Shown here: positions 56,331-62,504 of the stretch, piece after piece
How the letters are laid out: each line of letters starts with the position of its first letter
Numbering within the stretch: the stretch's first letter is position 1
NCBI GenBank assembly: GCA_017617545.1
Contig: JAFZVZ010000044.1
Location: 154,194 to 218,193 of the forward strand
Direction: 5' to 3'
Length of the DNA stretch: 64,000 nucleotides
From: Lachnospiraceae bacterium
GTDB lineage: Bacteria; Bacillota; Clostridia; Lachnospirales; Lachnospiraceae
Position numbers and translations under genes: made by a program
The notes under the pieces: generated by a model
Databases searched by the model: none
Told to the model about the DNA's origin: nothing
Seen by the model: the letters and a program-made list of their open reading frames with translations, nothing else

Positions 56331-57008
56331 ATGACTGAAGAATTAATGGAAAAACTGGAAGTGAAGACCGTCTTCACCATCCCTTTGTTCGGTGGGATCC
56401 CCGTGAAGGAGTCAATCGTTGTTACGTGGATCATCATGGCGGTGTTCATCATCCTTGCCATCGTGATGACACGGGGGCTTCGCACGAGAAACATTACCAA
56501 GCGGCAGGCGTTCCTGGAGTGGGTTGTCCTGAAGCTTGACGGTATCGTCGGCGGCATGCTCGGCGGCAAAGCCAAGGTGTTCGGCGAGTACCTGATCACG
56601 GTGCTGCTCTACATCGGCCTGGCGAACATCGTCGGTATCTTCGGTTTCAAGTCTCCCACGAAGGATATGAACGTGACGATCTCGCTCGCGTTGATGAGTA
56701 TCGTGCTCGTGGAGGCGGCGGGGATCATTTTCCTAGGGATCAAGAGACATCTGCACAAGTTCATAGAGCCGACGCCGGTGATCCTCCCGATCAATATCAT
56801 GGAGGTCGTCACGAAGCCGCTGTCGCTGTGCATGCGACTGTTCGGTAACGTGATCGGTGCGTTCGTCATCATGGCCTTGATCGAAATCTGCGTGCCGATC
56901 GGTATTCCGATGGTGCTCAGCGTCTATTTTGACTTCTTCGACGGACTGCTGCAGGCATACGTCTTCGTATTCCTGACAGGTCTGTATCTGACCGAGGCGG
57001 TGGAGTGA
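56331..57008 (+). CDS. atpB: ATP synthase Fo subunit a
   Basis: 225 residues. Five to six transmembrane helices; the essential Arg is in KPLSLCMRLFGNVIGA, and the last helix has LLQAYVFVFLTGLYLTEAVE (split: AYVFVFLTGLYLTEA), both diagnostic. It forms the proton half-channels next to the c ring. First gene of the atp operon, order a-c-b-(delta-alpha)-gamma-beta-epsilon. No atpI precedes it. Confidence 0.95.
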   Translation: MTEELMEKLEVKTVFTIPLFGGIPVKESIVVTWIIMAVFIILAIVMTRGLRTRNITKRQAFLEWVVLKLDGIVGGMLGGKAKVFGEYLITVLLYIGLANIVGIFGFKSPTKDMNVTISLALMSIVLVEAAGIIFLGIKRHLHKFIEPTPVILPINIMEVVTKPLSLCMRLFGNVIGAFVIMALIEICVPIGIPMVLSVYFDFFDGLLQAYVFVFLTGLYLTEAVE

Positions 57009-57134: not shown

Positions 57135-57362
57135 ATGAACACGACATTGATTGCAATCGGAGCAGGAATCGCAGTTCTTGCAGCTATCGGTGCAGGTATC
57201 GGTATCGGTATCGCTACCGGCAAGGCGATGGATGCCATCTCGCGTCAGCCCGAGGCGGAGAGCAAGATCAGTAAGAACCTGATCCTCGGTTGCGCGCTTG
57301 CAGAGGCAACGGCTATCTACGGCTTCGTTATCGCGCTGCTGATCATAATCATGTTGAAGTAA
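57135..57362 (+). CDS. atpE: ATP synthase Fo subunit c
   Basis: 75 residues, two helices joined by the RQPEAE loop. The ion-binding Glu is in [10 protein letters not shown]. Na+-type c subunits have Gln in helix 1 and Ser directly after the Glu; here the Gln position is hydrophobic and Ala follows the Glu, so H+ coupling is expected. Confidence 0.95.
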
Positions 57363-57488: not shown

Positions 57489-57965
57489 ATGCTGGAGATT
57501 GATTTCTGGAGTATTCTGTTCACCGTCATCAATCTGCTGATCCTTTTCGTTGCGATGAAGATTTTCCTCTTCAAGCCGGTGCGCAATATCATTGCGAAGC
57601 GGCAGGAGGAGGCGGATGCCGCAGCAAAAGAGGCAGACGCACGGGCTGAGGAGGCGGAACGCCGCAAGGCGGACTACGACAGGGCCATTGCGAAAACCGA
57701 GGCAGAGCGTGAGAAGATTTTGAAGGAAGCCAGAGAGCAGGCGGACGAGGAGTATCAGAAGATGCTCTCGGAGGCGCGCTCGGAGGCGGCGATCATCAAG
57801 AAGGAAGCCAGCACGGAGGGCGAGAAGCGCAAGCAGCGCATCATTTCCGAGGCCGGCAAGGAGATCGGTGACATGATCGCTTCCGCTACGACCAAAATCC
57901 TCGGCAATGTCGATGAATCCGAGCTTTACGATGCGTTCCTGAACACGATGGAGGACGAGAAATGA
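57489..57965 (+). CDS. atpF: ATP synthase Fo subunit b
   Basis: 158 residues: one N-terminal helix (about 8-27), then a long Ala/Glu/Lys-rich coiled coil forming the peripheral stalk. KAKGGGG-type landmarks are absent but the FKPVRNIIAKRQEEADA start of the stalk is typical. The last four bases overlap the next gene (ATGA). It must bind the delta domain that is fused to alpha here. Confidence 0.93.
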   Translation: MLEIDFWSILFTVINLLILFVAMKIFLFKPVRNIIAKRQEEADAAAKEADARAEEAERRKADYDRAIAKTEAEREKILKEAREQADEEYQKMLSEARSEAAIIKKEASTEGEKRKQRIISEAGKEIGDMIASATTKILGNVDESELYDAFLNTMEDEK

Positions 57966-59699
57966 AGCATGCAACTCTGTATTGCGTGACGCCTCCGTCG
58001 GAGGCTCAGCTTGCGCGCATGAAAGCCTTCCTCGCACGTGAAGAAGGCGATCCCGAGATTGAGATCAAGGTTGAGGTCGAGTTGTCTCTTGTGAGCGGTT
58101 TCATCCTGCGCACAGAGAGCAAGATTTACGACTGGAGTATGTACGGCCGCGTGGAACAACTGCGCGGCGCGCTTGGCGTTGTGCACGGAAGACGCCCGAA
58201 GAAGACAGTTGCCAACCTGAAGAAGTGCATCGAGGAGTTCAAGCTTGCCGCGGGCGAGAAGGAGTACGGAACCGTATCCTTCGTCGGTGACGGCATCGCT
58301 GTGGTGACCGGACTGGATCACGCCTGCTACGGGGAGATCGTGACATTTTCCTGCGGTGTCAAGGGCATGGTTATGGATATCCGCCGCGATGAGATCGGCG
58401 TTATCCTGTTCGGACGCGACACGGAGATCTTTGAGGGCAGCCAGGTGACGAGAACGTGCCGCATGGCAGGAATGCCTGTGGGCGACGGCTTCATCGGCCG
58501 TATCGTAGATGCGCTCGGCAATCCTGTTGACGGTCAGGGAGAGGTTATCTCTTCGGACTTCCGACCGCTGGAAAACCCCGCGCCGGGCATCATGGATCGC
58601 CAGCCGGTCACGACCTCGTTGGAGACGGGCATTCTCGCGATCGATTCGATGTTCCCGATCGGTCGCGGACAGCGCGAGTTGATCATCGGTGACCGCCAGA
58701 CAGGCAAGACAAGTATCGCGCTCGACACGATCCTCAATCAGAAGGGGAAAAATGTCGTGTGCATCTACGTGGCGATCGGTCAGAAGGCTTCAACCATCGC
58801 GAAAATGGTGACCACACTGCGTGAGGCAGGCGCCATGGAGTACACCGTAGTGGTGAGCTCCACCGCGTCGGAACCCGCGCCGTTACAGTATATTGCGCCG
58901 TACTCGGGCACAGCGCTTGCGGAGTACTTCATGTACAGCGGGCGTGACGTGCTGATCGTGTACGACGATCTTTCCAAGCACGCGGTCGCGTACCGCGCGA
59001 TCTCGCTTCTGCTGGAGCGTTCCCCGGGACGTGAGGCGTATCCGGGCGACGTGTTCTACCTGCATTCCAGACTGCTGGAGCGCGCGAGCCGTCTAAGCGA
59101 CGAGCTCGGCGGAGGTTCGATCACCGCGCTGCCGATCATCGAGACGCAGAACGGCGATGTGTCCGCGTATATCCCGACCAACGTGATCTCGATCACGGAC
59201 GGTCAGATCTATCTCGAGAGCGAGCTGTTCTTCGAGGGACAGCGGCCGGCCGTCAACGTCGGTCTCTCGGTTTCCCGAGTCGGCGGTGCCGCGCAGGCGT
59301 CCGTCATGAAGCAGGCTTCCGGTACGGTCCGTATCGATCTGGCGCAGTACCGCGAGATGGAGGTGTTCACGCAGTTCTCCTCGGAGCTTGATGACAGCAC
59401 GAAGCGTCAGCTAGCGCACGGACGCGCACTGATGGAGCTTCTCAAGCAGCCGCTCGGACATTCGCTGTCCATGCCGGAACAGGTCGTTCTGCTGCAGGCG
59501 GCGAACCGCAGACTGTTCGAGAACCTGAGCGTGAAGGAGCTTTCCGCGGAGAAGTACGAGTTCCTGAAGTTTATGAAGATGAATTTCCCCGATCTTTTCA
59601 CGGAGATCGGCAACGGCGATAAGCTGCGCAAGTCGCAGCTGGAGCGATTGGACGAAGCCGGCGCAAAATGGCTTGCGCAGCGGGGACAGGAGAGCGGAG

Positions 59700-59716
<17 letters not shown>
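57962..59716 (+). CDS. atpA: Fusion of ATP synthase delta C-terminal domain with subunit alpha
   Basis: 584 residues against about 505 for ordinary alpha. Residues 1-71 match the C-terminal domain of subunit delta: a PPSEAQLARMKAFL helix, then LSLVSGFILRTESKIYDWSM and GRVEQLRGAL, the pattern of delta segments such as vdpsliGGfvir and D-S-vrgrl. From about residue 80 alpha follows: YGTVSFVGDGIAVV at 102-115, Walker A GDRQTGKT, and SVSRVGGAAQ. There is no separate atpH: this is the gene in delta's usual place between b and alpha. The delta N-terminal domain, which normally docks delta to alpha, is absent and made unnecessary by the covalent link. Confidence 0.93.
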
Positions 59717-62044
<2,328 letters not shown>

Positions 62045-62078: not shown

Positions 62079-62504
62079 ATGAACACATTTCATCTGAAAA
62101 TCATCACCTGCGACCGGATCTTCTACGACGGCGAGTGCGAATCCATCATTTTCCCGGGATTCGACGGCCTGATGGAGATCCAGGCGAACCATGCTCCGAT
62201 GGCGACAACCGTGGCCGTCGGTGAAGTGCGCTTCCGCGACGCGGACGGCAGCACGCAGGCGGTGATCGTTTCGGACGGAATGATCAAGACGGCGGACAAT
62301 GAAGTGACATTGCTCGCATTTTCCGCTGAGAGACCGGATGAGATCGATGCGCACCGCGCGCAGGTGGCACTGGACATGGCGCGTGAGGAGATGCAGAGAA
62401 AACAGAGCATGGTGGAGTACAACATCTCCAACGCCGCGATGGCGCGCGCGATGGCTCGGCTGAGCGGCGCGAAGAGGATCCATCCGGATGATTTTAACAC
62501 GTGA
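62079..62504 (+). CDS. atpC: ATP synthase F1 subunit epsilon
   Basis: 141 residues. N-terminal beta sandwich (FHLKIITCDRIFYDGE, FPGFDGLMEIQANHAPM) and a C-terminal helical hairpin ending in a RAMARLSGAKR segment. It links the gamma rotor to the c ring and can inhibit hydrolysis. Last gene of the operon; no terminator was found after it. Confidence 0.95.
   Translation: MNTFHLKIITCDRIFYDGECESIIFPGFDGLMEIQANHAPMATTVAVGEVRFRDADGSTQAVIVSDGMIKTADNEVTLLAFSAERPDEIDAHRAQVALDMAREEMQRKQSMVEYNISNAAMARAMARLSGAKRIHPDDFNT

Follow-up and report, generated by a model that had tools for sequence, protein, structure and literature searches.

A natural delta–alpha fusion in an F-type ATP synthase operon of Lachnospiraceae and its possible bearing on stalk number

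We analysed a stretch of 64,000 nt from a Lachnospiraceae bacterium (GenBank assembly GCA_017617545.1, contig JAFZVZ010000044.1, positions 154,194 to 218,193 of the forward strand), referred to here as the window. Its plus strand carries a complete F-ATPase operon in the order atpB, atpE, atpF, fused gene, atpG, atpD, atpC, and the F1Fo-ATP synthase gene set for subunits a, b, c, alpha, beta, gamma and epsilon is present in this one operon. A separate two-domain delta subunit was not found there; only the delta C-terminal domain is present, joined to alpha in the fused gene, which divides as follows:

57962..59716, plus strand: fused delta C-domain/alpha, 584 residues (PF00213, TIGR00962, alignment to 9jc1_I)
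57962..58174, plus strand: delta/OSCP C-terminal domain, residues 1-71 (PF00213 104-172 of 172; profile matches; ratio of nonsynonymous to synonymous substitution rates, dN/dS)
58175..58267, plus strand: junction and alpha N-terminal helix, residues 72-102 (lacks an in-frame start with a Shine–Dalgarno (SD) sequence ahead of it)
58202..59647, plus strand: alpha proper, residues 81-562 (TIGR00962)

The ATG of the fused open reading frame (ORF) overlaps the atpF stop. In a Pfam search, the OSCP family matched residues 3-71 at profile positions 104-172 of 172 (30.6 bits, cut-off 22.3), residues 1-79 on their own reached 35.8 bits, and the OSCP part was followed by matches to ATP-synt_ab_N, ATP-synt_ab and ATP-synt_ab_C. 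The atpA model TIGR00962 covered residues 81-562 (709.5 bits, cut-off 484.45). The original prediction, made from the letters of the window, of a delta C-domain joined to a complete alpha in one 584-residue ORF was thus borne out by the profile search it had proposed, with both the OSCP and the ATP-synt_ab families matching. It was equally right that the delta N-domain is missing, as the Pfam search of the operon proteins found none. Among PDB sequences, residues 4-551 aligned to 6-555 of 9jc1_I (E 2.9e-182), covering both domains; this chain is named delta plus alpha, and we took it from its molecule name to be the engineered Bacillus PS3 fusion described below. It was also the best match (3.2e-14) when a profile built from ten relatives over their first ∼108 residues (A2) was run against PDB chain sequences, followed by the C-domains of E. 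coli and Bacillus PS3 delta and mitochondrial OSCP. Values of dN/dS were 0.03-0.20 for the delta part (computable for seven of eight relative pairs) and 0.03-0.12 for alpha; in the window lineage, the former are similar to or a bit above those of alpha, and they point to purifying selection on the delta part. Since five other assemblies (L175-L179), with 92-100% identity to the first 108 residues, have the same fused ORF, an assembly artefact is very unlikely.

The other genes of the operon are:

56331..57008, plus strand: atpB, subunit a, 225 residues (Pfam PF00119, 128 bits; NF004486, 295.1 bits, cut-off 272)
57135..57362, plus strand: atpE, subunit c (PF00137; GIGIGIATG ... LAEAT read by eye, no Gln)
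57489..57965, plus strand: atpF, subunit b, 158 residues (PF00430, 53.4 bits)
59700..60626, plus strand: atpG, gamma (PF00231, TIGR01146; start taken from the ORF listing)
60647..62044, plus strand: atpD, beta (TIGR01039, 794.9 bits)
62079..62504, plus strand: atpC, epsilon including its C-terminal helical domain (PF02823, PF00401)

The functional residues of F1Fo enzymes include the P-loops, an Arg in subunit a and a Glu in subunit c. By eye, we found P-loops in alpha and beta, the Arg in a, presumably the essential one within the SLCMRLFGN stretch, and the Glu in c. Both atpF and atpB are single in the operon, atpF being the only b gene found. N-ATPases are not known to have a separate delta or a delta domain, and their genes stand in another order. 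We ruled out this identity because the window subunits scored below every listed alternate-F1F0 cut-off, alpha for instance with 606.8 against 750.5.

A second, conventional and complete F-ATPase operon lies on contig C30 of the window genome (2.73 Mb, 45 contigs, 97.6% complete), and its delta is full (145.2 bits, in a frame of 183 residues). The claim that there is no separate delta gene therefore stands for the operon and fails for the genome. A complete atpH elsewhere, which had been named as evidence against the fusion reading, is literally present, but we dropped it as a refuter because that gene sits in its own operon and belongs to another enzyme. By the usual ion-site rule for subunit c, a Gln motif marks the Na+-type and its absence the H+-type. 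With GIGQG and AETT in the C30 enzyme and GIGIG and AEAT in the window enzyme, the former looks Na+-type and the latter, whose ion site looks H+-like, H+-type.

To place the fusion among relatives, we used even draws of genomes from the family, the class and the phylum, whose related members are not independent of one another; the family and class samples were queried with single sequences, which yields lower bounds. In the family, at least 42 of 200 genomes have a delta–alpha fusion: 29 are truncated, that is, without the delta N-domain (two of them, in G147 and G089, are cut by contig ends), 12 have a full delta and one includes b. This last (G068; L130 5129-7489, plus strand) is a 787-residue ORF of b, delta C-domain and alpha, with no other b found in its operon. 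It was seen in one genome only, as none of 40 relatives of G068 matched the whole b–delta query, the others matching mainly the delta part. At least 27 of 391 genomes of the class have a fused frame 560 residues long or longer, and operon DNA, retrieved for 26 of the 27 (all but G531), confirmed those 26; a listed frame length may overrun a stop, as for G103, listed at 674 residues yet with separate delta and alpha in L132. In a species-level scan, the best 80 of 184 confirmed relatives were all fused, 41 truncated and 39 full. Among the full fusions are those of the cultured Pseudobutyrivibrio ruminis DSM 9787, P. xylanivorans MZ8, Butyrivibrio fibrisolvens 16/4 and Agathobacter ruminis JK623. 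Among the 398 genomes of the phylum draw, at least 11 from other classes, in five families, have fused frames, and their operons show all 11 to be truncated. Rather than the one odd protein as which it had been treated, the fusion is thus a widespread architecture. The loci closest to that of the window come from metagenome-assembled genomes labelled Lachnospiraceae or Lachnoclostridium, several of them from rumen or reticulum, and we assign the window to the same setting.

Some loci depart from these layouts. In L162 (G207) and L163 (G449), the delta C-domain stands by itself in a separate frame of 80-81 residues just upstream of alpha, a truncation without fusion. The truncated fusion of L151 (G302) begins with a segment of ∼21 residues that is present three times in tandem, and beside the full fusion of L102 (G129) the beta ORF is split into frames of 176 and 325 residues. 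Gamma and beta share one open frame beside the truncated fusion in L140 (7563-9953, 797 residues; G326) and L141 (7091-9496, 802 residues; G453), which belong to two families. Both have an in-frame ATG where beta starts, preceded by AGGA in L140; a fusion of rotor and stator is puzzling.

Whether all three alphas of an F1 carry the delta domain depends on the start signal of alpha. Of 14 separate-alpha controls, 13 had GGAGG (12) or AGGAG (1) before a start located 29-30 codons ahead of the alpha anchor, the sole miss being the window genome's own conventional alpha. By contrast with these, 132 of 142 fused genes could be scored and showed a four-base SD match in only 6 of 86 truncated and 3 of 46 full cases, at the level of the background (171 of 2507), and none had five bases; the scanned stretch was 45-14 codons in the controls and 33-14 in the fused genes. 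At the window junction, we found no in-frame start preceded by an SD sequence. Together these results led us to reject free alpha made from an internal start. Because the fused genes are without an alpha start signal, alpha is unlikely to be made in free form, and three docking domains are to be expected on each F1. The remark in the original prediction that three domains per hexamer raise the question of stalk number was well placed. Junction residues 72-102 are 74-100% identical to eight relatives, and the spacing from YDWS to alpha in fused genes is mostly 45-54 residues. Thirteen close relatives keep delta and alpha as separate genes. In 11 of them, the stop codon of delta overlaps the alpha SD sequence (GGAGGTGA), and in five the two genes share a frame; loss of one stop could therefore fuse them.

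Phylogenies of alpha suggest how the truncated form arose. In a tree of 78 of the 80 loci (two alphas cut by contig ends were left out), full and truncated fusions are mixed in one 29-row clade (98/98) that holds the window. Within it, truncated L105 pairs with full L114 (100/96), truncated L107 and L118 go with full L112 (98/97), and L102, a full fusion, groups with the window and its genus mate (99/79). A larger tree, inferred by a quick method and with long branches, held 117 of the 152 rows that remained after six deep ones (L153, L156, L159, L160, L162 and L163) were dropped, near-copies having been removed. Here fusion needs five changes and the N-domain state 20, and the well-supported branches by themselves force 11 changes of the truncated-fusion label. 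In a 33-row tree, a single branch (97/93) separates the fused set from the other rows, and a constraint keeping the truncated fusions in one clade was rejected by the approximately unbiased (AU) test (p-AU 0.00116), whose p assumes a group named beforehand while these rows (28 of the 29 in the clade, the near-copy L144 being out, plus five from outside) were chosen after the 78-row tree, and with the bootstrap unsettled. When 33 chosen rows of the 78 were combined with the 11 fusions from other classes, the latter grouped together (98/93) in the opposite half of the tree from the window; truncated fusions of families f7 and f45, of the same class as the window, are also distant from it. On the alpha trees, the AU test and the other-class lineage, we rejected a single origin of the truncated form. 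Most likely, the N-domain was lost repeatedly after fusion, its regain by exchange being the other formal possibility; the truncated fusions of the other classes form an alpha lineage of their own.

We also looked for the lost domain elsewhere in the genomes. A profile of the N-domain of this clade (A3), with both controls positive, gave no real match in the window genome and ten others (nine truncated, one triple fusion), although the conventional delta of C30 escaped it at E ≤ 1, so that a very divergent N-domain could be missed. Two matches below threshold, in the window genome (G000, E 0.34) and G068 (E 0.048), lie in frames that by eye resemble an SbcD-type nuclease and an ArsR-type regulator. 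On the strength of this search and inspection, we rejected a move of the N-domain to a separate gene. Eight truncated-fusion genomes (G043, G062, G079, G109, G130, G137, G142 and G154) have a single weak OSCP match, which we assumed to lie in the fused gene, and one alpha over the atpA cut-off; two of them are less than 90% complete (G137, 81; G154, 87). With no full delta found in these eight genomes and only one alpha in each, the fused form apparently does without a full delta. A V-type D subunit is present in six of them, all but G109 and G142.

Fused genomes tend to hold a further rotary ATPase. Of the 42 in the family sample, 31 also have a conventional F-type enzyme, nine a V-type, none both and two neither, so that a second rotary ATPase is found in 40 of 42, compared with 76 of 133 non-fused genomes with an F-type (Fisher p 1.2e-6, uncorrected for relatedness). 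In these counts, the F-type was scored by OSCP matches, five genomes absent from the OSCP listing being taken as the five missing members of the 200, and the V-type by PF01813 matches above the cut-off (98 of 200, leaving aside a weak 99th in G147). The V-type D subunit was not found in the window genome. Neither did this genome or its genus mate have an rnfC over cut-off, whereas 35 of the 42 fused genomes have one, and a simple Rnf-driven Na+ circuit is therefore no explanation for the window species. The Na+ Gln motif occurs in none of the 142 fused Clostridia operons with a readable subunit c (two more rows gave no c) and in three of the 11 other-class fusions (L268, L270 and L271). In the other-class fusions L265-L267, L269 and L272-L275, subunit c has an unusual GDAxVA or GDSNVA where GxGxG is expected, and in L117, L140 and L141, from a second truncated-fusion clade, it has a long, signal-like N-terminal extension. 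Membranes of P. ruminis were reported to have both Na+- and H+-dependent ATP synthase activity (PMC11026938, citing Schoelmerich et al. 2020). From L220, with its H+-like c, we infer that the H+ enzyme of this species would be the full delta–alpha fusion.

The original prediction knew of no characterised delta–alpha fusion, which is now outdated: Ueno et al. 2025 built one, deleting the N-domain of Bacillus PS3 delta and fusing its C-domain to alpha, and noted natural ones (PMC12229609). According to that paper, the engineered enzyme contained 2.2 and 1.8 times as much a and b per gamma, balanced at a proton-motive force of 68 instead of 133 mV with a doubled H+/ATP of 5.8, and showed one to three stalks in cryo-electron microscopy maps. 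The authors argue that the delta N-domain limits stalks to one, and they describe all ATP synthases so far as having a single a subunit, with H+/ATP following c-ring size. They name natural fusions in Acidaminococcus fermentans, UniProt G4Q3K6 and A0A1I2C5T3, and call a multi-stalk enzyme highly likely for A. fermentans.

We propose that the fused gene encodes the alpha of a second, H+-type F1Fo-ATP synthase in rumen Lachnospiraceae. Every alpha would bear its own b-docking delta C-domain at its N-terminus, offering three equivalent sites per F1, and the delta N-domain, normally on the three-fold axis and thought to limit stalks to one, is gone. More than one b2 stalk would then probably be built, and with every stalk an a subunit would come to the c-ring. 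The more a subunits there are, the more protons would pass per turn, so that H+/ATP would be high and ATP could be made at low proton-motive force. We adopted this reading because the window protein has the same layout as the engineered PS3 fusion, and by that analogy we think it rather probable that the window enzyme is a natural multi-stalk H+-ATP synthase, with several stalks and a low-gradient role. On a broader proposal our confidence is evenly divided, namely that multi-stalk ATP synthases evolved repeatedly: fusion and loss of the alpha start would have been followed by several independent losses of the N-domain, freeing the axis for two or three b2-a stators per c-ring and raising H+/ATP, with a separate lineage in other classes doing likewise. 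Such bacteria would hold the resulting low-gradient H+ enzyme next to a V-type or a conventional F-type ATPase, the latter being Na+-type in the window genome.

Several points weigh against multiple stalks. Triple stalks of the engineered enzyme were rare in cryo-electron microscopy, which its authors attribute to dissociation, and its pump activity was below wild type (PMC12229609). Three stalks need more a and b per F1, and one atpB and one atpF gene are silent on copy number. Full fusions keep a conserved N-domain, also without an alpha start, so fusion by itself is tolerated without the symmetry argument, and three N-domains presumably could not all fit the axis. The triple fusion of L130 would give three b per F1, unlike three b2 dimers. 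A single-stalk enzyme, in which one of the three C-domains binds b2 because a or b is limiting or the first stalk blocks the rest, and in which fusion saves a subunit and prevents loss of delta, is a less probable alternative. It would suit the single a and b genes of the window operon, the full fusions, which make up 39 of the 80 kept loci and whose N-domain should continue to restrict the enzyme to one stalk, and the b supply of L130. It fits less well with the roughly doubled a and b per gamma taken in by the PS3 fusion (PMC12229609), and the repeated loss of the N-domain, together with its absence in another lineage, suggests a benefit from its removal.

A multi-stalk machine might also run mainly backwards, as an ATP-driven proton pump at low proton-motive force (acid tolerance) beside a Na+ or V-type partner. 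This variant, compatible with the reading we prefer, would make sense of the excess of second rotary ATPases in fused genomes and of the missing rnfC of the window genome. We nonetheless regard it as unlikely, given the Na+- and H+-dependent ATP synthase activities of P. ruminis membranes (PMC11026938) and the reduced pumping of the engineered enzyme (PMC12229609). Much less credible still is a mixed hexamer, in which one alpha per F1 keeps delta through internal initiation or a protease cut. Such an enzyme would preserve normal stoichiometry, and cleavage is compatible with the sequence, but ribosome-binding sites for alpha are no commoner than background among fused genes, with no match of five or more SD bases, and the conserved window junction has no SD-preceded start. 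A pseudogene, frameshift or assembly artefact has a negligible chance in view of the intact operon, the low dN/dS of the delta part and the same fusion in the other assemblies.

Compared with known systems, the window gene shares with the PS3 construct a delta C-domain linked through a short junction to the alpha N-terminus, without the N-domain. The PS3 enzyme is engineered and has the epsilon C-domain removed, whereas the window gene is natural and its operon intact, including a full epsilon. The A. fermentans, G4Q3K6 and A0A1I2C5T3 proteins, compared by their description in the Discussion of PMC12229609, are likewise fusions without the delta N-domain; the window differs in belonging to Lachnospiraceae, in standing beside a conventional Na+-type F-ATPase and in coming from a lineage that also has full fusions. 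The mycobacterial b–delta fusion (PMC5709465) resembles it in the covalent joining of peripheral-stalk parts, but there b is joined to delta, while the window atpF is separate and encodes 158 residues. Niu et al. 2017 (PMC5709465) described clostridial operons without delta, and the available passages recognise no delta domain on alpha; these operons were probably of the present kind, with delta missed. Our literature search, which left most subscription journals outside, found no paper on full-length delta–alpha fusions, delta–alpha fusions in Lachnospiraceae or repeated N-domain loss. While the truncated layout itself is already in print, we consider the full-length fusions, the repeated N-domain loss and the natural series to be new.

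With this series (separate delta, full fusion, truncated fusion, separate C-domain and b–delta–alpha), the idea can be put to a direct test, in part with cultured species. If natural enzymes do build several stalks, stator number would be a further means of setting the gear ratio of ATP synthases, one in use among many anaerobes of gut and rumen.
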